Below, piece by piece: positions 8,257-63,164 of a stretch of DNA of 64,000 nucleotides. The position numbers and the translations under genes were made by a program. The first letter of the stretch is position 1. Each line of letters opens with the position of its first letter. Source of the DNA: Psychrobacter sp. PL19 (lineage in GTDB: Bacteria; Pseudomonadota; Gammaproteobacteria; Pseudomonadales; Moraxellaceae); assembly GCF_017875835.1 (NCBI RefSeq), contig NZ_JAGING010000001.1, positions 2,232,001 through 2,296,000 of the forward strand, written 5' to 3'. The notes beneath the pieces are model-generated. The model made no database searches. It saw only the letters and a list, made by a program, of their open reading frames with translations, and had not been told where the DNA came from.

Positions 8257-8307
8257 TTAGTATTCATAAACGCTACTGGCGCACGAGCCACTCTTTAGTA
8301 TCTATCA

Positions 8308-8359
8308 AAACAGCGCTTGATATCCCCGACTTGAACGATGGGGATATCAAGCGCTGTTT
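8308..8359. terminator. Perfect 20-bp hairpin between convergent prpD and SDR gene
   Basis: Positions 8308-8327 are the exact reverse complement of 8340-8359, with a 12-base loop. It lies 52 bases after prpD and 60 bases before the end of the opposite-strand SDR gene. The flanking A and T runs are short, so it is an atypical bidirectional terminator or an mRNA-stabilising hairpin. Confidence 0.6.
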
Positions 8360-8418
8360 GTTTGGTGAGTGTTATAGAATGCTTGGGCTGTATAGACATA
8401 GACCCAAGTTATCAACAT

Positions 8419-34289: not shown

Positions 34290-34365
34290 GCGCCTATAGC
34301 TCAACAGGATAGAGCAGTTGCCTCCTAAGCGATCGATCCGAGTTCGAGTCTTGGTGGGCGCACCA
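34290..34365 (+). tRNA. tRNA-Arg (anticodon CCT)
   Basis: The 76-base cloverleaf folds by eye. The acceptor GCGCCTA pairs with TGGGCGC, the D stem is GCTC/GAGC, and the anticodon stem GTTGC/GCGAT encloses loop CTCCTAA. The T stem CCGAG/CTTGG encloses TTCGAGT, and CCA is encoded. Anticodon CCT reads the AGG arginine codon. Its 3' end is the integration site of the island that begins here; integration restores an intact tRNA end. The original terminator now lies after the island at 52519-52550. Confidence 0.95.
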
Positions 34366-34367
34366 AT
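34352..34367. repeat. attL core, 16-bp direct repeat
   Basis: TGGTGGGCGCACCAAT overlaps the last 14 bases of tRNA-Arg plus two bases. The identical 16 bases occur at 52478-52493. Confidence 0.88.
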
Positions 34368-34550: not shown

Positions 34551-34585
34551 GGTAATTATTAATCGTGGCTAATCGAGGTGTGGCA

Positions 34586-36049
34586 ATGGCTGAGCGCAAA
34601 AACTACCTATTAAATGTTAATGGCATAAAAGCTATTGCTAAGCTTGCACCACCGGCTAAACGTAAAAGATATAGCGATGGTGATAGCCTTCATCTAGTCC
34701 ATGACCCAAAGGGTTCGCTGTACTGGGTAATGACTTACCGTTATCAGTCAGATAAAGATATTAAGCCCAAACAAAAAACCTTTCACATTGGAACATACAG
34801 GTCATCAAAGCAAGATGTTGACACCGTATTCAAACCTGATATTAGTCTTAAACAAGCTCGTTCTTTGCGTGATAAAGCGAAGGCATTACTTGCTGATGAT
34901 ATTGACCCCGCCATTGATAAGAACAAGCACAAGAATAGCGTTGAGCAAAAAGACTTATTCAATGTGATAGCGCAAAGCTATATCAATGATAAATCAGACA
35001 CCACACCCAAAAACGTCCAGAAGCTACAAACCTACCTCGATAAGCATGTAGCGCCACATATCGGTGACTACCCTATTCAAGCTATCACAGCTCAAGATGT
35101 GATTAAGACAGGTTTAGCCGTACAGACCTACTTTGAGCAGCAAGGTAAATTGACGACGGACACCGCCCACAAGAGCGTGGCATTTATAACGTCAGTGTTT
35201 GAGTATGCTATTAATACACTAGCCTATGACATTATCAATGTCGCTTATGGGCGCAGCAAGGCGCTTAGGACCCATAAAGCTGAACGTATGAAAGCTATTG
35301 AACAACACCAATTCTCAGAGCTTTTACGCAATATTGACAACTATGGTAAAGATAATCCGAATGGGCATGGCCAGACAGTGGCAGGTATGCAGCTGATGAC
35401 GCTGTGTTTTGTCAGAACTAAAGAGTTAAGGTTTTTTGAATGGTCAGAGATTGATTATCATAAAAACGTGTGGCGCATACCAGCGGCTAAGATGAAAATG
35501 CGTCAAGACCATATCATTCCACTGTCACCACAAGCTATGGCTATCATTGAGCGTATGCGTCCACTGACAGAAAAGACGGGGTATGTGTTCTATAACTTCG
35601 AGCGCAGTAATACCTATAGTGAAGTGTGGTTTAATCAAGCACTCAAGCGCATGGGTTACACAGGCGACCCTTACCCTAAGATGACAGGACACGGTTTTAG
35701 GCAGCTGGCTAGTACAGGGCTGTATGAGCTGCAATTCAATGATAATCTGATTGAGATACAACTTGCACACCTTGAACAATCAAGCGTGAAAAAACGGTAT
35801 GATTTATCTGCACACTTAGCTGAACGCCAAATGATGATGAATAAGTGGGCGAACCATCTTGATGATTTACGCGCTGGCAAAGCGGTTAGCTTTGACTTAT
35901 TGACCCCTGATGAAGTCACAAAAGAAGTGAATAGCAGGAATGAGCAAGCAACTGAAATAGCGGCGCATGACAAAGAAAATTTAATAAAAAGCTTGCAAGC
36001 GCAAGGCATATCACAGGATGTATTATTAAAACTTGCTGAACAGCTTTAA
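34586..36049 (+). CDS. Tyrosine-recombinase integrase of the island
   Basis: The protein is about 487 residues from the ATG at 34586, which has GAGGTG 6 bases upstream; a GTG at 34565 is the longer alternative. An N-terminal arm-binding domain of the DUF4102 type (YSDGDSLHLVHDPKG, YWVMTYRY) is followed by a SAM-like core-binding domain. The catalytic domain has Arg in LCFVRTKELRFFEW (about 276), HGFR (about 369-372), His in QLAHLEQ (about 394) and Tyr in KKRYDLSAH (about 405). All catalytic residues are present. It would catalyse integration at, and excision from, the tRNA-Arg 3' end. Confidence 0.92.
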   Translation: MAERKNYLLNVNGIKAIAKLAPPAKRKRYSDGDSLHLVHDPKGSLYWVMTYRYQSDKDIKPKQKTFHIGTYRSSKQDVDTVFKPDISLKQARSLRDKAKALLADDIDPAIDKNKHKNSVEQKDLFNVIAQSYINDKSDTTPKNVQKLQTYLDKHVAPHIGDYPIQAITAQDVIKTGLAVQTYFEQQGKLTTDTAHKSVAFITSVFEYAINTLAYDIINVAYGRSKALRTHKAERMKAIEQHQFSELLRNIDNYGKDNPNGHGQTVAGMQLMTLCFVRTKELRFFEWSEIDYHKNVWRIPAAKMKMRQDHIIPLSPQAMAIIERMRPLTEKTGYVFYNFERSNTYSEVWFNQALKRMGYTGDPYPKMTGHGFRQLASTGLYELQFNDNLIEIQLAHLEQSSVKKRYDLSAHLAERQMMMNKWANHLDDLRAGKAVSFDLLTPDEVTKEVNSRNEQATEIAAHDKENLIKSLQAQGISQDVLLKLAEQL

Positions 36050-36239
36050 CAACGACATTTAACAACATGGTTTTAACAACTATAGCCAGCATTAGACTGG
36101 CAGACCGAACTTGATAGCGTCAACCGCCGTCAATATCAATTGCAAGGCTAGGACTAATTACCCGAACGATAGCTATCGCACCCTTAAGCTGTCATCGCCT
36201 TGCTCCTATTTTAACTTAAGGGTGTACGAGGGTGCGAAT

Positions 36240-37145
36240 GTGTCGTTACTTGATACGTTGAAAGATAGGCAGGACAAGAAATATATTTCTTTTTGGGGGT
36301 TAGTTTCTAACATAATTGCTGTTGATGAGGAAAGAAGCGATAACACTTACGCTAGTAATGAAACTTATTTCACCGTAGTTGAGGCTTTATTGAGATTAAA
36401 ACTACATGAAAAAGTTCGTTACTTTATTTATGACCCTGAGGATTTTGATTTTAAGCAAATAGATGAGCCAGAGACTGATGAAGCAAAGTTATTTTTAAAA
36501 ATGTTACTTCTAAAGTCTGGTAAAAAAATTGCGCCTACTGAAGTAATAAAAATTCAAAACCTGTTTAAAAATTGTTTTTGGCTTAAAGAATCTATAGAAC
36601 AAGTACTTCCTAATGGTATCGTTGACTTCACTAACCCAGTATTTTTTGGCGTAGGAGAGCATCGTCTTTTAGAAGTAAAACCCTCTTTAGTTGATGACGA
36701 AATACTTATTAAGTTGCAGCGCCTACAAGAAAAAATAAATGAGCTAGAAGCAGAAAAATCTAATGGTAGCTTTGCAATGGGAACGCCAACGGTAGCGCAT
36801 GGCGAACCTAAAACCAATGAACAGCTACTCGAAGAACTGGCAGCCGCCAACGCGCAGATCGAACAACAAGAGCAAGATATAAATAGGCTCAATGACCAGC
36901 TAAGTAAGCAAGCAGACACGCCAGCTACTGATACCGATAAAAAAGAAGGTCAAGGTGATAGTTTATTACTACTAGGCGCAGTCATGCACTGTATAAAAAA
37001 GGCTGCTAAGAAAAATCTTACACAAGAGTCATTAACTCAAACTATTTTGACAGAGTACAAAAGCGTTAGTGGTATATCGAAAGGCACTTTAGATAAGAAA
37101 TACACAGAAGCAAAAAAGCATCTAAATCAAAGATTTATACCTTAA
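36240..37145 (+). CDS. Island protein with coiled coil, unknown function
   Basis: From GTG at 36240, which has AGGG 9 bases upstream, the protein is 301 residues. An upstream TTG at 36111 would add 43 residues unlike the rest and has no ribosome site. The N-terminal half is globular, with a VVEALLRLKLHEKVRYFIYD region. A coiled coil follows (IKLQRLQEKINELEAEK; EELAAANAQIEQQEQDINRL). The C-terminal 60 residues (LLLGAVMHCIKKAAKKNLTQ to the end) are basic and helical and look DNA-binding. I do not recognise the family. It sits between integrase and the AlpA-type regulator and may control excision or replication. Confidence 0.7.
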   Translation: MSLLDTLKDRQDKKYISFWGLVSNIIAVDEERSDNTYASNETYFTVVEALLRLKLHEKVRYFIYDPEDFDFKQIDEPETDEAKLFLKMLLLKSGKKIAPTEVIKIQNLFKNCFWLKESIEQVLPNGIVDFTNPVFFGVGEHRLLEVKPSLVDDEILIKLQRLQEKINELEAEKSNGSFAMGTPTVAHGEPKTNEQLLEELAAANAQIEQQEQDINRLNDQLSKQADTPATDTDKKEGQGDSLLLLGAVMHCIKKAAKKNLTQESLTQTILTEYKSVSGISKGTLDKKYTEAKKHLNQRFIP

Positions 37146-37271: not shown

Positions 37272-37568
37272 ATGACCTTAGTCGATCAGTATCTAAGAAT
37301 GGCAAACCTTGCCAATCAACCAGCGCGTCCCGCTAGTACCCACACCACCGCAGCAGGTCAACAGCGCACCGTCACCGCCAAAGCCGCTACCCGTGGCATT
37401 ACTGGCTTCTCTGCCAAGCACATTTACCATCTAATTAATCAAAACCAATTCCCAGCCCCCGTAAAAATCGGACGGGCTAGTCTATGGCGCTTGTCCGAAA
37501 TCAATCGCTGGCTAGACAGTCATACCCAGTCGTCAGACGACAATGCCAACGCACAAGAGGGTGTTTAA
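37272..37568 (+). CDS. AlpA-family excisionase/transcription regulator
   Basis: The 98-residue protein has a 50-residue disordered start, then the AlpA-type winged/helix-turn-helix: GFSAKHIYHLINQNQFPAPV, then KIGRASLWRLSEINRWLDSH. AlpA-like proteins in P4-type islands activate or serve as the directionality factor for the integrase. The ribosome site GAGGTG lies in an inverted repeat. It is the first of a run of tightly packed genes to 41065, probably one operon. Confidence 0.8.
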   Translation: MTLVDQYLRMANLANQPARPASTHTTAAGQQRTVTAKAATRGITGFSAKHIYHLINQNQFPAPVKIGRASLWRLSEINRWLDSHTQSSDDNANAQEGV

Positions 37569-37569
37569 T

Positions 37570-37854
37570 ATGACGACTACAGCCACCGCCCCAGTGACCA
37601 ACCAGCCAGCACCTAAGACCCAAATAGAAATAGTTAGATCGCATCTAATGACAGGCGCAACTATCACCATATGGGACTCTATCCGTCTTTATAGAATTAC
37701 AAGTCTAGCCCCACGCATACACGACTTACGCAGTGCAGGACTGCTAATTCAAAGTGAAATGATCAAGCATAACAATAAATGGTTTGCGGTCTATTGGCTC
37801 GATGAACAGACCTTACTTGAAAGTGAACTATCTAATAGCGAGGTGACCCTGTGA
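37570..37854 (+). CDS. Small helix-turn-helix protein
   Basis: The protein is about 94 residues from the ATG at 37570, which has GAGGG upstream and follows the AlpA-type stop by one base; the frame is open back to 37543. The region IEIVRSHLMTGATITIWDSI then LAPRIHDLRSAGLLIQSEM resembles the winged-helix proteins found in phage and islands, where the helix pair recognises DNA and a beta wing follows (HNNKWFAVYWL). Function is probably DNA binding or element regulation. It overlaps the next gene by GTGA. Confidence 0.65.
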   Translation: MTTTATAPVTNQPAPKTQIEIVRSHLMTGATITIWDSIRLYRITSLAPRIHDLRSAGLLIQSEMIKHNNKWFAVYWLDEQTLLESELSNSEVTL

Positions 37855-38808: not shown

Positions 38809-38921
38809 CAACCTACCCACAGCCTAAACAACGCCGTAAATACGCCAAGCGCAAATGCTACTACAAAAAATATAGAGCGACGCGCCAGCCGAAAAAATCG
38901 CAAGCAAGGGGGAATAGATGA
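38805..38921 (+). CDS. Very basic 38-residue protein, translationally coupled
   Basis: GTG at 38805 overlaps the previous stop (GTGA) and its TGA at 38919-38921 overlaps the next ATG (ATGA). The product starts VTTYPQPKQRRKYAKRKCYY and continues with more Lys/Arg; nearly half of its residues are Lys, Arg or Tyr. The double overlap, with no other way to fill the 112-base gap, argues that it is real. It may bind nucleic acid or be a leader that couples translation of the DUF3987 gene. Confidence 0.5.
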   Translation: MTTYPQPKQRRKYAKRKCYYKKYRATRQPKKSQARGNR

Positions 38922-41065
38922 ACACAACACCAGTAACAGACACCCATGAAAAAGCCCGTGCTGAGAACACGGGCGGCTTCATTGAATACATTGCTGACTT
39001 TGATAACACTACACTAGGACAACGTGCACAAGATGGTGACTTAAGCCAGTTAGATAGCTTGCATGATGACTTAGGATTGCCAACAAACCATATTGATAAT
39101 ACGCGCTACCTACATGATGATATTAGCATGAGGGGCGGTAATAGCAAAGGCGATAAACTACCTAATACTAAAGGCGCTTATGGCCTTATTATGGTCAAGA
39201 ATAAAGGTGAACCTGTCAACGTGGCAGCACACATGCCTAATAGTGATAAACCGCCTAACATATCGGACACCACGCAAGCAAGCGCCTACGCTATTGGCTC
39301 AATGAGCCTTAACGATGACTGGTGGCTAGTAACTGGTTTGAGTGATGCAGTCACGCTTTACGCAGCCCTAGCCATGATGAACGGTAACGAAAACGTAACC
39401 GTCTTCGCGTGTCTTAATCAAAGTCTATACGATAAAACGCTAAGACATTTTGCCGAAGTTAAAACTATAAATATTATTGACACCGCCCAGCACAAAGACA
39501 GAATAACAAGCCGTTTGGCAGGCGTGAACGCGATTGCTCATATTGCAATAGATGACATTATTAGCAGACTGAATGAGGGTGACTTAATAAGTGACCTTAT
39601 CGCAGATGCGGAAACTATAGAGCTTGAAGCACTCGAGTGGGGCGACCCTGAACCCTTAGCTAGTGACTCAAGCCAGCCAACACCCTACCCTATAGAAGCA
39701 TGGAACGGATTACTAAGACGGGTCATTGAAGCCGTAGCATATTATGCACAAGTATCGCTTGGTATGGCAGCGCAATGCGTTTTAGGCGCACTAGCACACA
39801 TGGGGCAACGCTTTGTTGATGCACCTTTTGGCCATGGTCATAAGCCAGCCAGCCTAATACTGATAACAGAGGGCGAGAGTGGCAGCGGTAAAACCGAAGC
39901 TATGAACCTAACTTACTTCAAAATAGATGCCTATGAGAAACAGCAATATGAGCAATATTTAACTGACTTAGATATATGGGACACAGAAAAAGCCAGCTTG
40001 AAGGGTGGTGAATTAAAGACATTCCTTGATAGCACACCAAAGCCATATAACCCTGAAACCGTTTTTAAAGAAGCCACCATAGAAACGATACTTGATAAAT
40101 ATGTCAATCTTGAGATTATTAACGGCTCATGGGCAACCGATGACGGCGCACAATTTTTTAACGGTCACTCAATGACCAGTAAGACTGCAGGAAACGCCCT
40201 AACAAGTTTTACAGACCTTTACAGTGGTGGGGTGGTCAATCGTACACGCTCGCTAAAGAACGCTTTTGCTAATCCACGTACTAAAGCCTATGACGCACGG
40301 TTTACACTTATGTTAATGGCTCAACGTATTATTTTAGAGCCAGCATTAACCGACCCACTGATGAATGGGCAAGGATTTTTAGCCCGTGCTTTAATTGCTT
40401 GTCCTGAGGACTTGCGAGGTTATCGAACATATGACGACCCAAAGCGCCTAAGCGATGACCCAAACGATGACCCTTGCTTAATAGAATACTGGTCACGCTG
40501 CCAAATTTTACTTGATCCATTGCCAGCCAACGAGCCTAACGACACCACAGGTAAGCCTAAACGCATCAAAATGCAATGGGTAGACAAACAAACTGAACAA
40601 GTCTTTTATGGTCACATGCAAGCGATAGAGAACAGGCAAAGACAAGGCAGCGTGTTTGCTACTGTAAAAGCGTATGCGTCGCGTATGGCAGAAAATTCCA
40701 GTCGTATAGCATCATTAATGGCGTTTTTTGAGGGACGCAATACAATCACCACAGACGACATTACACGCGCTTTTATGTTGGTAGAGTATTCCACAGCCGA
40801 ACGCTTGCGCTATCTTGATGCAACCCCTACAGGTGAACAGAACGACAGTGAGAAGCTAAGCGGCTGGCTAGTTGATAAGGCAAAGGACAAGAAGCCGCAT
40901 AAATTAGGCAGAACTTATATATCAAACAATGCCCCTAACCCAATGCGTAAAAATACCAAGTTATTGCAAAGTGAGTTAGACAAATTGGAGTCTGCTAAAC
41001 ATATCAGGCAGGAAATGGAGGGACGCAGCAAAGTAGTATTAATCAATCCAAATCTATACGATTAG
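38918..41065 (+). CDS. DUF3987 helicase/primase-like replication protein
   Basis: The 715-residue protein has an N-terminal Toprim-like region (GLSDAVTLYAALAMM; VTVFACLNQSLYDKTL, about residues 145-180) and a central DUF3987 ATPase core. The core starts IEAWNGLLRRVIEAVAYYAQ and has Walker A GESGSGKTEAMN (about 316-327). The C-terminal part is a helical DNA-binding-like tail. Proteins of this type replace the replicative helicase/primase in satellites and islands. A cluster of TTAAGC iterons starts 8 bases after its stop and is a plausible origin. GGGG lies 5 bases before the ATG. Confidence 0.78.
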   Translation: MNTTPVTDTHEKARAENTGGFIEYIADFDNTTLGQRAQDGDLSQLDSLHDDLGLPTNHIDNTRYLHDDISMRGGNSKGDKLPNTKGAYGLIMVKNKGEPVNVAAHMPNSDKPPNISDTTQASAYAIGSMSLNDDWWLVTGLSDAVTLYAALAMMNGNENVTVFACLNQSLYDKTLRHFAEVKTINIIDTAQHKDRITSRLAGVNAIAHIAIDDIISRLNEGDLISDLIADAETIELEALEWGDPEPLASDSSQPTPYPIEAWNGLLRRVIEAVAYYAQVSLGMAAQCVLGALAHMGQRFVDAPFGHGHKPASLILITEGESGSGKTEAMNLTYFKIDAYEKQQYEQYLTDLDIWDTEKASLKGGELKTFLDSTPKPYNPETVFKEATIETILDKYVNLEIINGSWATDDGAQFFNGHSMTSKTAGNALTSFTDLYSGGVVNRTRSLKNAFANPRTKAYDARFTLMLMAQRIILEPALTDPLMNGQGFLARALIACPEDLRGYRTYDDPKRLSDDPNDDPCLIEYWSRCQILLDPLPANEPNDTTGKPKRIKMQWVDKQTEQVFYGHMQAIENRQRQGSVFATVKAYASRMAENSSRIASLMAFFEGRNTITTDDITRAFMLVEYSTAERLRYLDATPTGEQNDSEKLSGWLVDKAKDKKPHKLGRTYISNNAPNPMRKNTKLLQSELDKLESAKHIRQEMEGRSKVVLINPNLYD

Positions 41066-41072
41066 TATTAAC

Positions 41073-41296
41073 GCTTAAGAAATCCTGCTTAAACTGCTTA
41101 AACAGCCTCTATCCCTTATAGTTAGGGGGTTTTCATTAAGATGACCAAATTTTAAGCTTGCTTAAACGGCTTAAACTCAGCTCAAAATAACCCTGTTTAA
41201 GACAAACTTAAGCAATTTAAGCAACGTTAAGCAAACCCCTGTCTTAAGCAAAACCCTTAACCATCATACGTTACAGCCAATTTAAGCAGTTTAAGC
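41073..41296. repeat. TTAAGC iteron cluster, candidate replication origin
   Basis: Twelve copies of the hexamer lie in 224 bases: GCTTAA at 41073, 41087, 41096, 41160 and 41169, and TTAAGC at 41152, 41208, 41217, 41227, 41244, 41282 and 41291. Pairs are repeatedly spaced by 9 bases (41087/41096, 41160/41169, 41208/41217, 41282/41291). Iterons beside a replication-type gene suggest an origin. Confidence 0.6.
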
Positions 41297-41433: not shown

Positions 41434-41760
41434 ATGATTAGTGTTGACCAAACCGACCAATTTAGCCGCTGGCTGCACAAGCTTAAAGACCCACTAGGTA
41501 AAGTTGGCATACTGGCACGGATTAAACGAGCAGAAAACGGCAACTTTGGTGACCATAAATTACTTCCTGACACAGGCGGTATTTATGAGATGCGCATATT
41601 CAAAGGCAACGGTTACCGCGTCTATTATGCCAAGCAAGGTGATGTGGTTTATCTGCTACTGTTAGGTGGCAGCAAAGATAGCCAGAAAAGCGACATTACA
41701 AAGGCTTGTGCGATGTGGCAACAAGTTAAAGAACAAACAAAGGAGCGTCCCAATGACTAA
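41434..41760 (+). CDS. RelE/HigB-family toxin
   Basis: The 108-residue protein matches the addiction-module killer group of RelE/HigB toxins: FSRWLHKLKDPLGKVGILARI, then GNFGDHKLLPDTGGIYEMRI, then GNGYRVYYAKQGDVVYLLLL. Such toxins cleave mRNA at the ribosome. The ATG at 41434 is preferred over TTG at 41428. It precedes its antitoxin gene with an 8-base overlap, the HigBA order. It probably stabilises the island. Confidence 0.88.
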   Translation: MISVDQTDQFSRWLHKLKDPLGKVGILARIKRAENGNFGDHKLLPDTGGIYEMRIFKGNGYRVYYAKQGDVVYLLLLGGSKDSQKSDITKACAMWQQVKEQTKERPND

Positions 41761-42064
41761 TATTAAAACCAGCCGTTTTGATGTGGCGGAGTATCTGACA
41801 GATGAAACTCTTATCAATGCTTACTTAAATGAGATATTGACTGACGGTATGCCCAGCGAGTTTATCCAAGCCTTAAACGATGTGGCGCGGGCAAAGGGCA
41901 TGAATGAGCTGGCACAAAAGACAAGGATAAGACGTGAGAGCCTTTATAAGACCTTGCAGTCAGAAAAGCCACGCTTTGACACTATGCTAAAGATTATTGA
42001 TGCTATGGGCTTGCAAGTCACACTGACACCGAAACAAGAACCTGCCCAACTCACACAATTGTGA
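41753..42064 (+). CDS. HigA-like antitoxin
   Basis: The protein is 103 residues from the ATG at 41753, which has GGAG 7 bases upstream. It is a Xre-type helix-turn-helix antitoxin of the kind paired with RelE/HigB killers: DVAEYLTDETLINAYLNE, then the HTH GMNELAQKTRIRRESLYKTL, then a MLKIIDAMGLQVTL end. It overlaps the toxin stop by 8 bases and is followed by a strong terminator. Confidence 0.87.
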   Translation: MTNIKTSRFDVAEYLTDETLINAYLNEILTDGMPSEFIQALNDVARAKGMNELAQKTRIRRESLYKTLQSEKPRFDTMLKIIDAMGLQVTLTPKQEPAQLTQL

Positions 42065-42265: not shown

Positions 42266-42442
42266 GGAATCAAAAATAGCGGAATCATACGATATTGGAA
42301 TCATACGATATTGGAATCAAAAAACCTATATTAACAACTGATTCCAATGTCAAAAAACCACCTCTATCCCAGTCATATAAAGCAATTCAGCTTGGAATCA
42401 AAAAGGCTTGTGGAATCAAAAATAGCATAAATATGGAATCAG
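42266..42442. repeat. GGAANCAAAA repeat cassette 1 (N = T)
   Basis: GGAATC iterons start at 42266, 42281, 42297 and 42313; the reverse copy TGATTCC ends at 42345; forward copies follow at 42394, 42412 and 42435. The 9-bp stem TTGGAATCA/TGATTCCAA (42311-42319, 42339-42347) forms the central hairpin. A 16-bp direct duplication (42281-42296, 42297-42312) explains why the first interval is 47 rather than 31 as in the other cassettes. No ORF crosses it. Confidence 0.85.
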
Positions 42443-42528: not shown

Positions 42529-42690
42529 GGAAGCAAAAACCCTAGAAGCAGTGGAAGCAGGAAGCAAAAAGACCCTATAAAAAACTGCTTCCAACATGAA
42601 AAAACCAAGCTTAGCCCAGCCGTATAAAGCGTTTCACCTTGGAAGCAAAAAAGTGCTTGGAAGCAAAAAACAGCATTAACTTGGAATCAG
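42529..42690. repeat. GGAANCAAAA repeat cassette 2 (N = G)
   Basis: GGAAGC iterons start at 42529, 42553, 42560, 42641 and 42659; the reverse copy TGCTTCC ends at 42592. The last copy (42683) is GGAATC. Spacings: 31 from first iteron to hairpin arm, 33 across the hairpin, 49 to the next iteron, then 18. Confidence 0.85.
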
Positions 42691-42785: not shown

Positions 42786-42945
42786 GGAACCAAAAACCAT
42801 GGAACCAGTGGAATTTGGAACCAAAACACCCCTGTTTATCTTTTGGTTCCAACATGAAAAACTACTCTTAGCCCAGTCACAGAAATAGTTTCAGCTTGGA
42901 ACCAAAAATAGCTTTGGAACCAAAAAAACACCTGAAACTGGAAGT
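42786..42945. repeat. GGAANCAAAA repeat cassette 3 (N = C)
   Basis: GGAACC iterons start at 42786, 42801, 42817, 42898 and 42916. The reverse arm TTTTGGTTCCAA (42841-42852) pairs perfectly over 12 bp with 42815-42826 around a 14-base loop. Spacings 31, 34, 48 and 18. It ends about 75 bases from the 3' end of hsdR. Confidence 0.87.
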
Positions 42946-43019: not shown

Positions 43020-46000
43020 TTATATCATTTCCTCAGCACCTAGCTTAGTATCAAGCATTAGTCTAATGAACTTCTTAAACTGATTAGGATTAGATAATAG
43101 ATGCATGGTCATACCTTCATAAGCCTCTTGGCTTTCAAACAGCGCGTCCATGGCAGCATCAGGATAACCACCTAACATAATTTGATCAGGACTGTTCTTA
43201 TTATTAGCGAACTGCTTTACGACGATCTCATTTTCAGTGACCTTATCCCAAATAGTATTTTGAAAATTGACCATGTCATTTTCGGTAAAGTCTTCGCCTG
43301 CAAACACTTCATTCAACCGCTCAATAATCTGCGATAAAAACGCTTCTTTTTGATCCTTTGGTTTCCCTGTACCACCGCCGCCACCAGTATCCAGTTGATA
43401 CTCACTTTTACTTTCTTCTAGCTTTAGGTGTTGCTGATGCAGAATTGAGACACGGTAATGACTCATGACGATGTTACTTAGATCGACATCATCTTCATCA
43501 TCAAAGCTTTCACGCAGTAGTGGCTGTAGATTACGCGCGTATAGGCTAAGCTTCTCTAATTCTTTATCGTCATAGTCAACAATTTGCGACATAAACTCAT
43601 ACTGGCGTGTGAATGTACCTAAATCCTTTTTAAAGATTTCCAGCTCATCTTGCTCAAGTTTGAAGCCTTTATAGTCGTTTTCAGCATTGGTCATCAGTAC
43701 TACATCACCAGTCGCTTTGGTACGCTCAAGCATTGCCTTAGCATATTGTGCTTGCTCACGTGCCAGCTTATAGCGCTTCTGCCAACGATCGACCGCTGGC
43801 TTGCAGATATTACTAATGGCGGCATTGGACTTGTGCTTACTATAAAAAGCCGCAACGAACTGCTCAACTTCGTTCTTAGTGAAGATATCACTGTTATCGA
43901 GTTTGTTATAAAGATCAAACACTTGATCTGGGTCAGACACATCCGCTAAGGCTGCAGTCTCATAATACGGCTGGAATGCTGCCAAAATATCTTCAGGATC
44001 ATTAAAGAAGTCGAGCACGAAGGTGCCGCTCTCCGCCTTACCTTTATAGGTGCGGTTAAGCCGTGATAAGGTCTGTACGCAGTCCACGCCTGTCAGCTTC
44101 TTATCAACATACATGGCGCACAGTTTCGGCTGATCAAAGCCCGTCTGAAACTTGTTAGCCACTAGCATCACTTGATAGTCATCACTATCAAAGGCTTTAC
44201 GTAGATCGCGGCCTTTTAGCCCGATATTCATATTATGCTCAGTGAACTTATGGTCGATCAACGCGCCACTGTCAGGGTCATTGTCGTTAAAGCTGACCTC
44301 ACCTGAGAACGCTACCATCGCATTGATGCCTTTGTAGCAGTGCTCAGTAATATAATTATCAAACGCCAGCTTATAGCGTACGGCTTCTTTACGTGAACCA
44401 GTCACAACCATGGCTTTGGCTTGTCCGCCTAATAAACCTTTGATGTTATCGTGAAAGTGTTCAATAATGATTTTGACCTTTTGCGCGATATTATGCTCAT
44501 GTAGGCGCACCCAGCTATTCAGCTTAATCTTAGCGCGGCGAGCATCCACTTCATCATCGGCTGCGGCCAGCTTTTGCTTGAGCTGATAGACCACTTTATA
44601 GTTGGTGTAGTTCTTGAGGACATCTAAGATAAAGCCCTCTTCAATCGCTTGGCGCATTGAGTAAACGTGATAAGCGGCTGGCAAGTTATCTTTCGATGCT
44701 GGCAAGTCAGAATTAGGCAAACGCCCAAATAGCTCAATAGTCTTCGGCTTAGGCGTGGCAGTAAAGGCATAGTAACTTAGGTTTTCACTGCTACGGCGCG
44801 CGGCAAGCGTGGCATCCAATATAGCATCAAGACTGTCTTCACTAGATAACGGCGCGTCATTACCAATAGCATTGCCTTGATTACTCTCTATATCACCAGA
44901 GACCAATACTTCTTTTAGCTGGCGTGCGGTAGAGCCTGTCTGCGATGAATGCGCCTCATCGGCGATAATGGCATAACGGCGCGACTTTAAAACACTAGAG
45001 TCTTCAATGGCTTTTAGAACATGAGGAAAGGTTTGAATGGTCACGATAATGATCGGTTGCGCGTTCACCAATGCGGCGGCAAGCTGCTCAGACTTAGAGC
45101 CGTCACCTTCTTTTTTATTGATCTTGCCAACCACCCCATCAGCATGTTCAAACTGATAGATGGTATCTTGAAGCTGGTCATCGAGCACAGTACGGTCAGT
45201 AATGACGATCACTGAATGAAATTGCTTATCGCCTTGATGATTGTACAAGGTTGATAGCTGATGCGCTGTCCATGCGATAGAGTTGGACTTACCTGAACCT
45301 GCACTATGCTGAATCAGATACTTTTGACCAGCGCCCTCATTAATGGCGGCATTGACCAACTTAGTCACCACATCCCACTGATGATAGCGCGGAAACATCA
45401 TAGTTTCTTTTTTGGACTTACGTCCGATGACATCTTCTTCTGCTTCGATCTGCAAGTGCATAAAATGCCCAAGGATCGAGAGTAAGTTCTCCGGCGTTAA
45501 TACCTCATTCCATAGGTAATCAGTGGCATAGCGGCTGCTATCGGTAGGCGTGTCATTGCCCGCACCGCCCTCCGCTGTGCCTTTATTAAAGGGTAAGAAG
45601 TAAGTGCTATTACCTGCCAGCCTAGTGGTCATATAGACCTCATATTGACTGACAGCGAAATGTACCAGTGCGCCACGCTTAAACGTCAGCAGTGGCTCAA
45701 GTTTCTTGGTATCTGGGTCTTTTGGCAGGCGTGTACGCTTATATTGAGTAATAGCGTTTTGTACGGATTGCTTAAACTCAGATTTGAGCTCCATGGTGAC
45801 TACTGGCAAGCCATTGACGAATAGCACCACATCAATACGGTTACGTTTAGCGACCTTGCCATTACTGTCTTCGCCGTCTTGAAGACTGACGTGAGGGCTA
45901 TAGACCACCTCAGGGACAACACGGCAGATATTGCTCTCATAGCGTGCCATGATCTCAGGGTTAAGGCTGTGCTCAGGCTTAAACTGGCAGAGAGAGAAAC

Positions 46001-46322
46001 GAGCATTACGAATCTTTAGACCATGACGCAATACACCAAGCGTGCCATAGGTGCGTGAGGCTTTATCGGTAGAGTGTTCATCCGCTTTATTCAGCTGCTT
46101 AACCAATGCTGCAATAAAGTGGCGCTCAGAGTCGATAGGATAAGTACGACAAAACTTCTCCCACTCCTGCGGCTGGGTAGTCTGCACAAAGTCCAGCACA
46201 TCTTGCTCATATAGCGCGGTCTCTGCTTGATAGCCGCTGGCATGACCCAACTGCCAGCCAGTTACTTGCATTTGGCTGACGATATCGGCTTGAAAGACAG
46301 ATTCGTAAGTAGTGTCGGTCAT
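43020..46322 (-). CDS. hsdR: Type I restriction endonuclease subunit R
   Basis: The 1100-residue motor-nuclease subunit has an N-terminal PD-(D/E)xK nuclease (RNRIDVVLFVNGLPVVTMEL, Glu-Leu-Lys at about 176-178). Superfamily 2 translocase motifs follow: Walker A HSAGSGKSNSIAW (about 337), DEAHSSQTG (about 454), YYAFTATPKPKT, and the later FQTGFDQPKLCAMYVDKKL and QTLSRLNRTYKGK. The C-terminus binds the methylase core and contains a Gly run (about 980). Length is normal. It is last in the operon after hsdM, hsdS and a HEPN-like gene, with a 151-base gap that could hold its own promoter. Confidence 0.95.
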   Translation of the reverse strand: MTDTTYESVFQADIVSQMQVTGWQLGHASGYQAETALYEQDVLDFVQTTQPQEWEKFCRTYPIDSERHFIAALVKQLNKADEHSTDKASRTYGTLGVLRHGLKIRNARFSLCQFKPEHSLNPEIMARYESNICRVVPEVVYSPHVSLQDGEDSNGKVAKRNRIDVVLFVNGLPVVTMELKSEFKQSVQNAITQYKRTRLPKDPDTKKLEPLLTFKRGALVHFAVSQYEVYMTTRLAGNSTYFLPFNKGTAEGGAGNDTPTDSSRYATDYLWNEVLTPENLLSILGHFMHLQIEAEEDVIGRKSKKETMMFPRYHQWDVVTKLVNAAINEGAGQKYLIQHSAGSGKSNSIAWTAHQLSTLYNHQGDKQFHSVIVITDRTVLDDQLQDTIYQFEHADGVVGKINKKEGDGSKSEQLAAALVNAQPIIIVTIQTFPHVLKAIEDSSVLKSRRYAIIADEAHSSQTGSTARQLKEVLVSGDIESNQGNAIGNDAPLSSEDSLDAILDATLAARRSSENLSYYAFTATPKPKTIELFGRLPNSDLPASKDNLPAAYHVYSMRQAIEEGFILDVLKNYTNYKVVYQLKQKLAAADDEVDARRAKIKLNSWVRLHEHNIAQKVKIIIEHFHDNIKGLLGGQAKAMVVTGSRKEAVRYKLAFDNYITEHCYKGINAMVAFSGEVSFNDNDPDSGALIDHKFTEHNMNIGLKGRDLRKAFDSDDYQVMLVANKFQTGFDQPKLCAMYVDKKLTGVDCVQTLSRLNRTYKGKAESGTFVLDFFNDPEDILAAFQPYYETAALADVSDPDQVFDLYNKLDNSDIFTKNEVEQFVAAFYSKHKSNAAISNICKPAVDRWQKRYKLAREQAQYAKAMLERTKATGDVVLMTNAENDYKGFKLEQDELEIFKKDLGTFTRQYEFMSQIVDYDDKELEKLSLYARNLQPLLRESFDDEDDVDLSNIVMSHYRVSILHQQHLKLEESKSEYQLDTGGGGGTGKPKDQKEAFLSQIIERLNEVFAGEDFTENDMVNFQNTIWDKVTENEIVVKQFANNKNSPDQIMLGGYPDAAMDALFESQEAYEGMTMHLLSNPNQFKKFIRLMLDTKLGAEEMI

Positions 46323-46473
46323 AGTTTTTTCTTATTATAGTTAGGAGAATTAAGTTATTATTTGAGAATTCTTATGAAGGATTAGCATAGGTAAAGAAAG
46401 TTATAAGCCAACAGAAAGTTTAGCAAAACTATAATATAAATAGATTTTACTCCAACTACTCTTTCTGATATTT

Positions 46474-47085
46474 TTATTTTTCAAGAAAATCCGAAATAAT
46501 AGTATAGTTAATACCTTTACGTTCAAACTCTGACTGCATCCAACCAAGTAATTTAAGAACTAGCACAATAAAAACTATAATTATCTTTTTATTTAAATCA
46601 GCATCTTCATATTTATAACTTCTTTCTATGTCTTTACCAGTTGTTGTGTCAGTTCCTCCAATGTGAATAGAGAACTCTTTACAAGGCAACAGATTCTCAG
46701 ATAAAGGCAATTCATCTACGAATAAAATCAATGCATCTAGGCGGCTTTGTTCTAAAGTATATTTCCTATTATGCGAATAACTATTTCTAATCTTATTAAA
46801 CCTATCCAATACTTCGAAAATCTTACTATCTAATCCTAGGTTTTGAGCTATAGACAACTTAGATCTAAAACCAATAAAAGGACCTTTAAATAAATCCTCA
46901 CTTCCTGATGTTTTAGAGCACCAAATATTAAGAAAATCTTCTAAAATTAAATGTACTCTTAAAACGACTCCTGCTGTGTCTGTTGAATTAATCAAAGCTA
47001 AATAGTCGTTATGATCTAATACATTAGCAAAATCACCACCGACGCCCACATAGCTTGAGCCATTATCATCTTCAAAACTAGTCAT
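46474..47085 (-). CDS. HEPN-like protein between hsdS and hsdR
   Basis: The 203-residue protein is all-helical. It contains a conserved HEPN-type signature RNSYSH (Arg-x4-His, about residues 100-105) within LDRFNKIRNSYSHNRKY, preceded by VVLRVHLILEDFLNIW. MltR-like and other HEPN families share this layout; many are RNases in defence or toxin systems. The C-terminal part has a hydrophobic helix (IIIVFIVLVLKLLGWM). AGG lies 8 bases before the ATG. It sits inside a type I restriction operon, a slot known to take extra genes. The nuclease role is inferred, not shown. Confidence 0.65.
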   Translation of the reverse strand: MTSFEDDNGSSYVGVGGDFANVLDHNDYLALINSTDTAGVVLRVHLILEDFLNIWCSKTSGSEDLFKGPFIGFRSKLSIAQNLGLDSKIFEVLDRFNKIRNSYSHNRKYTLEQSRLDALILFVDELPLSENLLPCKEFSIHIGGTDTTTGKDIERSYKYEDADLNKKIIIVFIVLVLKLLGWMQSEFERKGINYTIISDFLEK

Positions 47086-47159
47086 TTGAACAACCTGTAA
47101 TTTAATAAGGATATCTTAATAGAAGTATATCTTAAACTTTGCTTTGCTTTAAATTGGTA

Positions 47160-48452
47160 TTAGATATTGTCAGGCGCTTCCCAGCTACGAACATCAATCT
47201 TGCCAGTGACAGCGGAAGATATTAAAGCAGTGCGGCGTTCTTGCATGAGTTGAACGGCTGACTGCGCATTAGTAACTAGCTTATCAAACTTTAAAATCTC
47301 TCGATCTATATACTCGACTATTAGCTTCTGCTCTTTATCTTTAGGCAAAATAATAAAACTATCTCCTAGCTCTTCAGCATTAAGATGAGGCTGTGCTGCA
47401 CGTGTCTTTTCAAGGTCAAACTGACTATTCCTCACATAGTTGCTTAACAAAACATACCCTAAAAATTCAGGTAGACAGCCTGTAGCCCTAACAACCATAT
47501 CAAAGCCTGCGATACTACCTTTGTACTTGCTTGGAATAATTGATGAATCTCCAGTACCTGCACCACTTCTAACAACAATGATGTCGCCTTTATCCAACCA
47601 AACGATTCTATTTTCAGGAATATCGTCTGAGTTAACAAAAACTAAACCAGCTTCCGAAATCTTGCCTGAACGAATATTTGTAGCTCGTATCAACGGAATT
47701 CCTTCTTCTTGATATTTAGGGGGTTCACCTATTCCATATCGTATTTTTGATATGTGTTTTACTGGTACAATTTGCCAATGCTCCGGCACATCCCCCAACC
47801 ACTCCACCCCAGAATCTTTCATCGGTACATCAGGGTTTAAGCCTTTAGTCACCGCATGACTGATAACCGCTTGGCGCTTCTCTTTTAACAGTTGGATAAG
47901 GGTTTGCTGTTTTTCGATTAGCGTATCGATTTGGATAGTTTCATGGTCGAGAAAATCAACGATTTTCTTTTGTTCTTTCATTGAAGGGACAGCAAACTGC
48001 ATTGATTTCCAAGTTTCAAAGTTAAAACTCTCTATAGAAACACCGTAACCTTTAAGACTCAATGCTGAGTTTCCTAAGCAATAGGATAAATAGTTCCTGT
48101 CAAAATCAGAGCTCAAAGTTATACGTTGAACAACATTAGAATATATCGAATTTTCAACAGGTTTGTGAACGTACGGAGTTCCATTTCTAGTTAAAAGCAA
48201 ATCATTTTTTGTTGTACGTTTTTCTTCAGGGAATCCAATATAATCTGATAATAACGGTGTTTTATTGCAAGTGTATAAAGTCTCTTTACCGTTTCCCCAA
48301 TAAGTTTTATCAATAACTTCACCTGCATTAGCTTTTAAAAAAGTATAGGCAAGTTTACTAGTTATCCATTGATTAGGTATGAAACCTAAGACCAAAACCC
48401 CAGAATCTTTATATTCTGCGTACTGCCGATACTTCGTCACCAATTCAGCCAT
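47160..48452 (-). CDS. hsdS: Type I restriction-modification specificity subunit S
   Basis: The 430-residue protein has two target-recognition domains, each followed by a conserved helical spacer. The first spacer is QIDTLIEKQQTLIQLLKEKR then QAVISHAVTKGL, leading into DSGVEWLGDVPEHW. The second is KFDKLVTNAQSAVQLMQERR then TALISSAVTGKIDVR near the C-terminus. It determines the bipartite DNA target of both modification and restriction. Its ATG overlaps the hsdM stop by one base (TAATG), so translation is coupled. Confidence 0.93.
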   Translation of the reverse strand: MAELVTKYRQYAEYKDSGVLVLGFIPNQWITSKLAYTFLKANAGEVIDKTYWGNGKETLYTCNKTPLLSDYIGFPEEKRTTKNDLLLTRNGTPYVHKPVENSIYSNVVQRITLSSDFDRNYLSYCLGNSALSLKGYGVSIESFNFETWKSMQFAVPSMKEQKKIVDFLDHETIQIDTLIEKQQTLIQLLKEKRQAVISHAVTKGLNPDVPMKDSGVEWLGDVPEHWQIVPVKHISKIRYGIGEPPKYQEEGIPLIRATNIRSGKISEAGLVFVNSDDIPENRIVWLDKGDIIVVRSGAGTGDSSIIPSKYKGSIAGFDMVVRATGCLPEFLGYVLLSNYVRNSQFDLEKTRAAQPHLNAEELGDSFIILPKDKEQKLIVEYIDREILKFDKLVTNAQSAVQLMQERRTALISSAVTGKIDVRSWEAPDNI

Positions 48453-50839
48453 TACGAATGCACCTCACCCAATAACTGCATAATCTCTGAGCTAACCTTA
48501 TCCAAATCTGTATCGATGTCCGCCAGCGCGCGCGGTGGCTCATAGACATAGAAGTGACGGTTAAACGGTATCTCAAAGCCAACGATGCCGATCTCTTCAT
48601 CAATGGCATCTATTTTATCGCTATTTATCCACGCATCAGGCACATGCGGCTGTACCTCACGGGCGAAGTAAGCTTCAATTAACTCAGTGGTCGTTACATC
48701 AGGATTGAGCGGTACGTTTTCATAATCGCGTAGATCACTGTCTGTTTGGAACTCTACAATTTTAGTCTTGCTCGCAGGGTCAGTGTAGCTAAACGCACCA
48801 TAGAGCGGATTGGCAGCTTTCACTGATTTTTTAATCACTGGCTCAGCATTGGGGTTTTTCCAAGTGATAGCATCTAGCAGCTGCTTTTTCTCTTTCGTAT
48901 CAAGATTGACATCAGCGTCTTTTAACGCTTGTTTAAACACTTTTTCAAACTCATTGAAATCATCGAATTGGCGCGCGCCTATAGCCGCTTGCAAAGACTT
49001 GGCTTTGTTCAGTATCTCAAGCTGATCCTGCCATAGCTTGGCATCGAGTACGTCTTTGACTTGGCGTTCTTTAAGCTCGCTAAAGTCTGCCTTGATCATT
49101 GCGCGTGCATCTACCGTGACCGCTGATAAGTCGCCGTAATTGCTAGTATTAGCATCGGTATTATCGTCAGTCGTCCAATCACTACCAAACGCTTCATACA
49201 ACGCTGGCATGACGATATCAAATGGCTTAGCTGCATAACGTAGGCTATCGATAGCACTATCAGATAGCTGAGCAGATAAACGTAACGGACGCTCAATCGT
49301 TAGACGGCGATAGCCAAACTCATGGGTGGCAAATATCTTACTGGCAAAAGTCTTAGCAGGTTCCGCTTTAGGGTTTGCCGATTGACGACCACGGTTAGAT
49401 TTAACCTCTTCTGGCTTATCAAGTACCCGTGCATCAACCACTTCAAAGTCACCAAAGCTGCGGGTAATGGTCTTGATATCGTCTTCGCTCATCTCATTAC
49501 GCTTAGAGCCCAGCGACTTACGCATCTTGCTGTATAGATTACTACCGTCAATCAGCTGTACCTTGCCGCGACGTTCAAGCGTTTTCTTATTACTTAATAT
49601 CCAGACATAGGTAGCAATACCCGTGTTATAGAACATATCGTTCGGTAAGGCGATGATTGCTTCAAGCAAGTCTGCCTCAAGGATATAACGGCGAATCTCA
49701 CTTTCGCCACTACCTGCGCCGCCTGTGAATAGCGGTGAGCCGTTTAAGATAATACCGATACGGCTGCCGTTGTTTTGGTCTTTAGCATTACTGTCTTGAT
49801 TGTCATCTTGGCTGCTACCAGTGATAGAACGCATCTTACTGAGCAAGTGCATGAGGAATAATAGCGAGCCATCTGATACGCGCGGCAAGCCAGCACCAAA
49901 GCGGCCATCAAAGCCTTTTTGCTGGTGTTCATCATTAATCTCACCTGATATCTTTTTCCAATCTACCCCAAACGGTGGATTAGACAGCATGTAGTTAAAC
50001 TTCTCAGCGACCAGCTGATCACTAGACAAGGTGTTACCCAGCTTAATGTTATCCACCTCTTGCCCTTTGATCAGCATATCGGCTTTACAGATGGCGTAAG
50101 ACTCAGGGTTTAGCTCTTGACCATAGGTACGCATCACAGCGTCAGGGTTTAGCTCAAGCACATACTCCATACCAGAAGATAAGAAGCCGCCCGTCCCTGC
50201 TGTGGGGTCATATATGGTGCGAATAATGCCGTCTTTGGTCAGTGCATCATCATCTTCCATAAATACTAAGGAAGTGGTCAGGCGCACGATATCACGTGGG
50301 GTAAAGTGCTCTCCTGCGGTTTCGTTAGAACTCTCCGCAAATCGGCGGATCAGCTCTTCGAACACAAAGCCCATTTCATGATTAGAAATATTTTCAGGGC
50401 TAAGATCAGTATTGGCGAATTTTTGTACCACTTTATAAAGTAAATTGGCGTCTGCTAGCTGACCGACAAACTCTTCAAACTTAAAATGCTCGAATATTTC
50501 ACGTGCGTCTTTAGAGAAGGATTGAATATAAGTGTTCAAGTTGTCTTTAATATCGCTTTGACCCATCTTACTCAGGTCCATAGGCGAGATATTATAGAAC
50601 GCATGCTTGCTGGCACGAATAATGAACTGCTCTTGCGCCTCCTCAGGCAAATCCATGCCAGCGATACGCTGACTCTCAGCGACCACATCTGCCTTAGTAT
50701 TTTCTAACACGCACTCTAAACGGCGCAATAGCGTAAATGGCAGTATCACTCGCCCATATTGTGATTGTTTAAAATCACCACGTAATAGGTCAGCAACTGA
50801 CCAGATAAAAGCAGCTGTTTGAGAAAAGTTTTTGGTCAT
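48452..50839 (-). CDS. hsdM: Type I DNA adenine methyltransferase subunit M
   Basis: The 795-residue N6-adenine methylase has a helical N-domain ([20 protein letters not shown], then [14 protein letters not shown]). The SAM-binding motif I is DPTAGTGGF (about 209-217) and the catalytic motif IV is NPPF (about 285-288). The C-terminal 300 residues exceed the short EcoKI-type M subunit (529) and match the long form. First gene of the operon; its promoter should lie in 50840-51204. Divergent from a lipoprotein gene. Confidence 0.95.
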
Positions 50840-51204: not shown

Positions 51205-51585
51205 ATGAATAAGCCCGTTTACTTAATACTGATATTACTAACAGCTTGCCAGCCTGTGCAAAATATTGATGACGACTTTGTACAAATAAGGGAGTCACAA
51301 TGGACAGCAGTGGACAACATCAAACCTTATCCATTCACAGTTGAATATGGGGAAATTGCCTGTAGTATGAGTGAGGTTTACTTTTTCCCTAACGATACCG
51401 CTAATGATGAGTCGCAAATAGGCTGGCCACTCAACCGTCTGGCTGAAATTGGTTTGAAGAAAAACAATCTAAAGACAACTATAATCAATCCTGTTATACC
51501 TAACGCTGATTTATCAGAAGCTATTAAGATTGGTTTAGATCATTGTGAGAAGGTCAAATCACAGGGAGCTGGCTTTAACTCTTAG
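51205..51585 (+). CDS. Small lipoprotein, DUF2511-like
   Basis: The 126-residue protein has a lipoprotein signal peptide: MNKPVYLILILLTAC with the lipobox Cys at residue 15. The mature part has PFTVEYGEIACSMSEVYFFP and a GWPLNRLAEIG segment, the pattern of DUF2511 (YebY-like) proteins, whose function is poorly known. AAAGG lies 6 bases before the ATG. It is inside the island, divergent from hsdM, and looks like cargo rather than part of the restriction system. Confidence 0.65.
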   Translation: MNKPVYLILILLTACQPVQNIDDDFVQIRESQWTAVDNIKPYPFTVEYGEIACSMSEVYFFPNDTANDESQIGWPLNRLAEIGLKKNNLKTTIINPVIPNADLSEAIKIGLDHCEKVKSQGAGFNS

Positions 51586-51703: not shown

Positions 51704-51860
51704 GGAATCAAAATAGGTAGAATCCAGAAAAGCAGGAATCAAAACACCCTTTATTGGATTGTGATTCCAATGCTAAAAACCACCGCTACGTCAATGGGTA
51801 TAATGACTGTAACGGGAATCAAAAATAATCACAGGAATCAAAAACGATGGAATTCGTTAA
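51704..51860. repeat. GGAANCAAAA repeat cassette 4 (N = T)
   Basis: GGAATC iterons start at 51704, 51735, 51815 and 51834, with a degenerate copy at 51719; the reverse arm TGATTCC is at 51762-51768. Spacings 31, 34, 47 and 19 match the cassettes on the other side of the restriction operon. Confidence 0.82.
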
Positions 51861-51989: not shown

Positions 51990-52130
51990 GGAAACAGAAT
52001 AGATGGAAACAAAAGGATCAGGAAACAAAAAACCCTTTATTAGATTTTGTTTCCAAAGTCAAAAACTACTTCTAGGTCAATAAATTAGAGAGCTGGCGTT
52101 GGAAGCAAGAATATTGTTAGGAAACAAGAA
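51990..52130. repeat. GGAANCAAAA repeat cassette 5 (N = A)
   Basis: GGAAAC iterons start at 51990, 52005, 52021 and 52120; the copy at 52101 is GGAAGC. The hairpin GGAAACAAAA/TTTTGTTTCC (52021-52030, 52045-52054) is perfect over 10 bp with a 14-base loop. Spacings 31, 34, 47 and 19. Confidence 0.82.
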
Positions 52131-52477: not shown

Positions 52478-52493
52478 TGGTGGGCGCACCAAT
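52478..52493. repeat. attR core, 16-bp direct repeat
   Basis: The 16 bases are identical to 34352-34367 at the tRNA-Arg 3' end. No other tRNA sequence is present here, so this is the right junction of the island. Confidence 0.88.
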
Positions 52494-57018: not shown

Positions 57019-58188
57019 CTAACGTTCACCTAAGCCTTCAGAGAATGTTTTAGTAAGTGGCTTGGTCAAATACGATAATACTGAACGTTGCTGCGCTTTG
57101 ATATCGACTGAGGCAGTCATTCCAGGCTTGATGACAATCTCATCACGGCGTCTAGAAAATTCAGCGCCAATTATTTTTATCTGTACCCGATAATAAGGCT
57201 CTTCGCCTTTAGGAGTCTGCTCCATTAGTGTGTCTGGACTTATATATATTACCGTACCATTCATTGCTCCAAAAATAGAATAATCATAAGCATCAAGCTT
57301 GACGGTAGCATCCTGCTGCTCTTTGACATAAGCGATATCTACGGGGCTTATCTTAGCCTCAACGATAAGGTCACTGCTGGTTGGTAATATCTGCATGATG
57401 ATCTCACCAGGCTTAACTACTCCGCCGATAGTCGTCACTAGGATGTTGTTTACCTTACCATCTGTCGGTGCAAACAATTTTTTCTCTTCTAGCACTTGTG
57501 AGTGATCGCGCAATTGCTCAAGTTCAGTATCTAAATCCTCTTGCGCCTTGGTCATCTCTGATTGTGCCTCTTCAAAATACTTATTACGCTTGTTAGTAAT
57601 TTGGGCTTGGATCTCCGCCACTTGCCGACGCAATTTAATCACGTCAGCCTGACTCACATCACCATATGATAGTAATGGTTCATTCATGCTCAACTCTTGC
57701 TGTGCCAACACCTTCATATTTTGTAGTGAACTGACATCTTGATCAATCGCTTGCCGGCGACGGTTATAGAGCTGGGTTTGGTTTTCTATATATTCGCTAT
57801 AGTTTTTGATATCCTCTGGAAACATCAATGGCCGCTCAAATATCTCGGCCTCTAGGCGCGCAAGCTTGGCTTTAAGCGCTGCTATCTTCGAGCCTGCATT
57901 AGCTACTGCCGCTTGCGCACGCTCTTCTTCTAAGGCAACTATCAGCTGTCCTTTAGTGACATCCTCACCTTCTTTGACTAATATTTCCGTCAGTACACCC
58001 CCTTCTACAGCTTGGATATCTTGTGTACGGGCGCTGGCAATAATAGTTCCTGTCGCTCGCGTGACTTGGTCAATTTGGGCAAAATAAGCCCAAACAATTA
58101 GTGTGATTATCCCGACCAGTGCACCCCAAATTATAATGCGCGTACGCCCAATTTTAGGATCATGAGACTTGTGCCTGTAGTTATCCAT
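57019..58188 (-). CDS. HlyD-family membrane-fusion protein (type I secretion)
   Basis: The 389-residue adaptor has one N-terminal membrane helix (IIIWGALVGIITLIVWAYF, about 18-36), then the lipoyl half-motif ATGTIIASARTQDIQAVEGG, a long coiled-coil hairpin (about 95-235), the second lipoyl half and a beta-barrel (VVKPGEIIMQILPTSSDLIV). The C-terminal region contains KPGMTASVDIK. It bridges the ABC exporter and the TolC-like channel. It overlaps the upstream ABC gene by 8 bases, so both come from one transcript. Length is typical. Confidence 0.93.
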   Translation of the reverse strand: MDNYRHKSHDPKIGRTRIIIWGALVGIITLIVWAYFAQIDQVTRATGTIIASARTQDIQAVEGGVLTEILVKEGEDVTKGQLIVALEEERAQAAVANAGSKIAALKAKLARLEAEIFERPLMFPEDIKNYSEYIENQTQLYNRRRQAIDQDVSSLQNMKVLAQQELSMNEPLLSYGDVSQADVIKLRRQVAEIQAQITNKRNKYFEEAQSEMTKAQEDLDTELEQLRDHSQVLEEKKLFAPTDGKVNNILVTTIGGVVKPGEIIMQILPTSSDLIVEAKISPVDIAYVKEQQDATVKLDAYDYSIFGAMNGTVIYISPDTLMEQTPKGEEPYYRVQIKIIGAEFSRRRDEIVIKPGMTASVDIKAQQRSVLSYLTKPLTKTFSEGLGER

Positions 58189-60478: not shown

Positions 60479-60570
60479 GATAAATGTATCCGACTGATTA
60501 TGATTAGCAGGTAGTCAATGATCGAAAAATGTAATAAAAATAGTGTTATTTAGGGCGTATTGATACAAAA

Positions 60571-62115: not shown

Positions 62116-62383
62116 GAGGTTTGGCTCAGTCCTGCTTTAAGCAAATAAAAAATCAAGCGCTACGACATATAGTATGAAAATAGCGTAACTAAATTGGACC
62201 GTGTTGCATATTCAGAATATTTTTGAATGTGTCTGTCATCCCTGCTATAGATCAAGCCTCTTATTTAAATGACTTAATACTCGCAGACCAGAACATTGAT
62301 GTCTATAATTAATATCATCACGTAAATATTTTATACTGATAGACTACTAAACACTTGTTTTTGGCTTATGGATCATAAAAACG

Positions 62384-63100: not shown

Positions 63101-63164
63101 AACAGCCACTGGCAGTCTAGAAGCAGATAGATAGTTTTATATAAATGATGGTTAGTGACACAAC

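Follow-up and report, generated by a model that had tools for sequence, protein, structure and literature searches.

Arrays of iterons one base apart in a Psychrobacter satellite island as candidate packaging sites for different helper phages

A 64-kb stretch of the Psychrobacter sp. PL19 genome (64,000 nucleotides, here called the window) raises the question of why five hairpins that differ from one another at a single base agree at that base between their two arms. The five central hairpins are found at 42313-42345 (variable base N = T), 42560-42592 (G), 42817-42850 (C), 51735-51768 (T) and 52021-52054 (A). An earlier note on this DNA had claimed that all of them pair through the variable base and that the fold, or symmetric binding by a dimer, must therefore matter. 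The pairing was confirmed in all five, as were the lengths given for two of them – the arms of the third hairpin (42815-42826 and 42841-42852) are 100% complementary over 12 bp with a 14-nt loop, and the fifth pairs over 10 bp, also with a 14-nt loop. The sequence TTGGAANCAAAA is present in 12 copies in the window, compared to 0.02 expected from shuffles.

Each hairpin is part of a larger cassette on the forward strand, consisting of 4-7 direct (same-strand) copies of GGAANCA and one inverted copy. Relative to the central copy, these are at about -47, -31, -16, 0, +27/28 (inverted), +80/81 and +99. Array 1 has three cassettes: cassette 1 (42266-42440, N = T), with seven direct GGAATC copies and the inverted copy at 42340; cassette 2 (42529-42688, N = G), with direct GGAAGC copies and the inverted copy at 42587; and cassette 3 (42786-42921, N = C), which contains the hairpin at 42813-42852 and has five direct GGAACC copies and the inverted copy at 42845. 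Array 2 has two: cassette 4 (51704-51839, N = T), with four direct GGAATC copies and the inverted copy at 51763, and cassette 5 (51990-52125, N = A), with direct GGAAAC copies and the inverted copy at 52049. Besides the inverted arm, nearly all of the direct copies around each hairpin have the same variable base. Two copies in the window deviate: the last copy of the G cassette (+123) has a T, and the copy at +80 in the A cassette has a G (GGAAGC). The agreement extends over the whole cassette, and the matching arms are a part of it. Adjacent intact cassettes of one array do not repeat N – the order is T, G, C and T, A in the window, and C, T in locus L044. No similarity to the DNA of array 1 was found in plasmids and phages.

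Pairing fails to explain this agreement, because two direct copies cannot base-pair. Across 19 satellite and phage arrays, the central copy and the inverted arm had the same base in 16; all 27 left direct copies agreed with the central copy, as did 32 of the 37 right direct copies. The compensatory changes at the variable pair would fit a structured RNA, and cassette 1 does fold better than shuffled sequences (z -3.0), but the remaining cassettes do so less (z -0.9 to -2.0), and the direct copies with which the inverted arm is predicted to pair in the RNA differ from one cassette to another. When 21 hairpins were aligned, the single variable pair accounted for 10 of the 11 double-changed cells; this pair was itself unpaired in four of the hairpins, while the last three pairs of the AAAA/TTTT extension were unpaired in 6, 8 and 10 of the 21. 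Covariation spread along a helix, together with one conserved fold, as would be seen in a structured RNA, was not found, and an Rfam scan of the window matched tRNA only, with no match at the arrays. The earlier note had named a change in one arm alone among homologues as the observation that would count against the fold. Such changes are present: the arms are mismatched in L037 (A vs G), in the second hairpin of L039 (A vs G) and in phages L239 and L249 (G vs T), and the inverted copy is absent from the related arrays L168, L169, L170, L179 and most of L171-L175. A structured RNA is, on this evidence, highly improbable.

The other proposal, symmetric binding by a dimer, was half right. The evidence supports a DNA-binding protein that recognises a series of iterons, mostly on one strand. 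It speaks against one symmetric site for a dimer, since most copies are on the same strand and several arrays have no inverted copy. With the fold not supported, protein-binding iterons remain, and it is as iterons, not as a conserved fold, that the cassettes are to be read from their sequence.

The two arrays are found within an 18.1-kb integrated island that has exact 16-bp direct repeats at both ends. The attL core (TGGTGGGCGCACCAAT, 34352-34367, forward strand) is at the 3' end of a tRNA-Arg(CCT) gene (34290-34365), and its exact repeat, the attR core, is at the far end of the island (52478-52493, forward strand). Genes on the forward strand encode a tyrosine integrase with an arm-binding domain (34565-36049; Pfam Phage_integrase 1.6e-18, Arm-DNA-bind_3 2.7e-16), an AlpA regulator (37272-37568; Pfam Phage_AlpA 1e-09), a winged-HTH protein (37543-37854; Pfam HTH_39 2e-07) and a DUF3987 primase/helicase (38918-41065; Pfam DUF3987 1.4e-37, PHROG DNA helicase 3.3e-30). 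An antitoxin-like gene (dnstrm_HI1420) is at 41666-42064. The cargo is a type I restriction system on the reverse strand (43020-50839), flanked by an array on each side (T, G, C in array 1; T, A in array 2). It consists of hsdR (43020-46322, with an HSDR_N match), an unnamed gene (46474-47085), hsdS (47160-48452) and hsdM (48452-50839), the latter two named only from sequence (NPPFG motif) and gene order.

The island thus has a site-specific integrase with att repeats at a tRNA gene, and an AlpA regulator and a primase with its own origin-like iterons, all of which are marks of satellites. No phage structural genes were seen among the ten island proteins scanned, with the small ORFs only partly covered. 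By gene content, the island is of the phage-satellite type (P4/PICI/PICMI), without recognised capsid genes. Of 105 Psychrobacter genomes, 32 had similar primase genes in one search and 40 in another, though the latter count may take in other elements.

A few other features of these regions were noted. The interval between the integrase and the AlpA gene contains a hypervariable mosaic gene (36111-37145, forward strand) of patchy similarity among islands, with only short stretches in common between islands that are otherwise nearly identical; equivalents are found in L041, L042, L043, L168, L170-L172, L175 and L179. A small lipoprotein-like ORF directly precedes an array in three places – before array 2 in the window (51205-51585, forward strand) and at 8335-8703 and 18077-18457 in L039. 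In G090, the same three-hairpin array is found twice, about 29 kb apart (L037 10129-10517 and L038 9096-9484), and the duplicates share neighbours: an OmpA-like protein, a TypA-like protein and a 1056-aa restriction-modification-like protein. Outside the island, the region 57019-63902 of the window has type I secretion system-like genes beside a glycine/aspartate-rich repeat protein.

If the cassettes are iterons, one protein that might read them is the satellite's own replication protein. Repeats were sought in the 1.5 kb after the primase at about 55 loci. In most of these (about 50 satellites), an iteron cluster directly follows the primase stop codon, and its sequence follows the primase family: GGGACA, GCTTAA, or the TAGGC, TTAGC or GGAAAG types. 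The window has the GCTTAA type, with 12 copies of GCTTAA (TTTAAGC) in both orientations at 41073-41296, specific to its primase family. From their position and their iterons, these would be the origin of the island. The GGAANC arrays are further downstream of the primase and do not follow its family. The primases of L041, L042 and L043 are 94-96% identical, yet N is C, C and G; all four bases occur within the single island of the window; and nearly the same cassette is found in satellites with different primases.

The arrays could nonetheless act in replication, with the satellite's own replication protein binding them as an origin or, like P4 crr, as a second cis element. P4 has two separate cis replication regions, and in many islands the arrays are a little downstream of the primase gene. 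In addition, unrelated IMG/VR phages (L229-L252, L254-L263, L382, L399, L404, L414, L424, L450 and L472) have a primase/helicase gene whose 3' end directly bears an array of GGAACC or GGAAAC, inverted copies included, and GGAATC repeats extend into a primase gene in a Prosthecobacter MAG. The arrays of the phages are probably their origins, so that the hexamer probably has this role elsewhere; as these loci were found by a hexamer search, the letters they share are partly so by construction. In the Psychrobacter satellites, however, an origin is the less likely reading because the primase-specific iterons lie separately, and neither N nor even the motif follows the primase. Overall, a replication element seems unlikely. 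The primase is likewise disfavoured as the reader of the arrays, on the same two grounds. The mosaic gene between the integrase and AlpA is not supported as the reader either: L041 and L042 both have C arrays, and their mosaic proteins are only about 24% identical.

When the genus was searched for clusters of GGAANCA, a prophage (L178) emerged that has seven GGAAGC copies within a single gene (7560-8489). These are at -44, -32, -16, 0, +28 (inverted), +61 and +79, compared to -31, -16, 0, +28 (inverted), +81 and +99 in cassette 3 of the window. The array in L178 has the geometry of the cassettes in its left half (-32, -16, 0, +28 inverted), while the pair of sites on the right is 20 bp further out in the window cassettes than in the phages. 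The protein encoded by this gene has an N-terminal HTH, a predicted disordered linker and long helices (HTH/coil protein), and the iterons fall in the codons of the linker. Homologues are found in nine Psychrobacter genomes, other Moraxellaceae and IMG/VR, and many of their genes have an iteron of their own just after the HTH codons. The iteron types include GGAAGC or GGAAGC/GGAATC, GGAACC together with GGCACC; CGCACC; GGAAGA; GGAATA; CAGAAC, AGAACG, GCAACA, AGTCAAA and GGTAACG. Direct GGAACC copies combined with an inverted GGTGCC occur both in the C-type phage L271, where the inverted copy is at +28, and in the satellite-type locus L177, where it is at +27.

Phage counterparts were thus found for C, for G and for mixtures of G and T. 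Neither pure GGAATC nor pure GGAAAC sites were found in the HTH/coil gene of any phage, and when IMG/VR was scanned for copies purely of the A or T type, none of the matches listed encoded an HTH/coil relative. This is the main gap in a reading in which the arrays serve helper phages. A family-wide search for the Moraxella-type motif (GCAACAA) was swamped by low-complexity coding repeats. A pattern scan of named genomes gave 60 matches, most of them chance matches except for those in Psychrobacter and in one Prosthecobacter MAG (L093, about 711-1288). In the latter, 108-bp units containing direct GGAATC and inverted GATTCC are repeated in tandem within the 5' part of a primase-like ORF that starts with a TerS-like HTH.

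There is evidence that the HTH of the phage protein reads the iterons. Among 14 phage genes, the more the recognition helices differed, the more the motifs differed too (r 0.75). With the C-terminal domain controlled for, the partial r was 0.70 and none of 5000 permutations was as high; the motifs were assigned from de novo counts and aligned on the A-rich tail, which involved some choice. The iterons in the phage genes match those of the cassettes in sequence and have a similar geometry, and they covary with the recognition helix. It is probable, and we are fairly confident, that the phage HTH/coil protein also binds the cassettes.

The genes around the HTH/coil gene suggest what this protein may be. 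TerL is encoded a few genes downstream, and the HTH/coil protein is the only small-terminase candidate seen near TerL. The HTH/coil gene is common to phages with different replication modules, in which the initiators are O-like, DUF1376, or DnaC with DnaB. In the annotated relative ABMM1, a predicted headful phage (PMC10345192), no gene is annotated as TerS. For these reasons, the HTH/coil protein is most likely the small terminase subunit of the helpers. Against this identity, comparison with known TerS proteins gave no family or structural match. Fold searches with the HTH/coil model gave generic helical matches only, and a PDB sequence search gave nothing useful; the outcome of these searches is no evidence against TerS. 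A pac site has repeats in or near the small-terminase gene. The iterons are inside the gene of this putative TerS and track its recognition helix, and they are likely to be a pac-like site.

It has also to be considered that the HTH/coil protein is a replication or partition protein, whose gene carries the phage's own site and whose site the satellites copy. The lambda ori lies in gene O, the same site-in-gene layout, and the Prosthecobacter MAG has an HTH followed by GGAATC repeats and a primase. However, the phages encode other initiators, which vary while the HTH/coil gene stays, and the gene is in the same block as TerL with no rival TerS candidate seen. A role in replication or partition is accordingly doubtful in our view.

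Taking the HTH/coil protein as the probable small terminase, the following mechanism can be proposed. The island would be a phage satellite with its own integrase, primase and origin-like iterons, and its five cassettes would be arrays of GGAANCA binding sites for an HTH protein encoded by the helper, each cassette acting as a pac-like packaging signal. The recognition helix of the phage protein would read the variable base, so that each cassette (T, G, C or A) would suit another helper lineage. After excision and replication from its own origin, the satellite would be packed by whichever phage is present with a terminase that matches one of the cassettes. With different bases in its cassettes, it could be packed by a wider range of helpers.

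Binding by the terminase protein need not serve packaging. The arrays could act as a sponge, holding the protein and hindering the phage without being packaging starts. The restriction system on the islands implies competition with phages, and there are many sites per island, as a sponge would have. But the cassettes keep the spacing seen in the left half of the phage sites, which a sponge would not need; and the satellite must enter a capsid somehow, with no capsid or packaging gene among the proteins examined. A sponge therefore appears improbable. Packaging is, by a modest balance of likelihood, the purpose of the binding, and alternative pac-like sites, each cassette tuned to a different helper, are the best explanation of the arrays, one that we somewhat favour. 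The more general proposal – that satellites carry a panel of alternative packaging sites one base apart, matched to alleles of the helper terminase, so that an array is a list of possible helpers – is put forward tentatively.

Arrays of another kind may be related. In other Psychrobacter satellites (L298, L301, L333, L289, L323 and L300), arrays of AACC units are found downstream of the primase, in pairs one helical turn apart, and the members of a pair agree in their variable bases (TCA/TCA, GTA/GTA, TTA/TTA, TGA/TGA). Perhaps they follow the same principle with another helper family.

The cassettes address the question of how satellites without packaging genes get packed. According to a recent review, the cos- or pac-type motifs of satellites are often unknown, and matching motifs would pair satellites with helpers (PMC11389934). 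If our reading is correct, the cassettes give this match from sequence alone, one satellite can address several helpers, and the iterons offer a natural set of cases in which the specificity of a DNA-binding protein of phages changes by one base.

Several known systems share features with the island. Like P4 and the PICIs, it has an integrase, AlpA, and a primase-helicase with iterons of its own, which form the origin in those satellites and are origin-like in the island. P4 and PICI satellites use the packaging machinery of the helper, as the island would. In P4 and many PICIs, this happens through the cos site of the helper or a small terminase that the satellite itself encodes, and we know of no array of alleles differing by one base among them. 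The phage iterons resemble the pac site of P1, as they are repeats within a (candidate) small-terminase gene. P1 pac has hexamer repeats on either side of the packaging start, inside the small-terminase gene pacA. There is one hexamer type in P1, whereas the motif differs between the phages described here, and the satellites bear noncoding copies of several of its alleles.

The PLE satellites have iterons whose alleles, in the conflict with phage ICP1 and its nuclease Odn, follow the specificity of a DNA-binding domain (PMC8263062). The GGAANC alleles are similar in tracking DNA-binding-domain specificity, but the PLE reader is the satellite's own initiator, while the Psychrobacter reader is likely a phage protein, and one Psychrobacter satellite holds several alleles. 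The PICMI satellites of Vibrionaceae have, like this island, an integrase, AlpA, a primase and defence cargo. They lack capsid-remodelling and packaging genes (PMC10803314), and no capsid or packaging gene was seen among the island proteins examined. Headful-like packaging by the helper was inferred for them, and the authors could not find a cos or pac site (PMC10803314). The Psychrobacter island is from another genus, is larger and is integrated at a tRNA-Arg site, and in contrast to PICMI it has a candidate for such a site, in the form of an array of several alleles.
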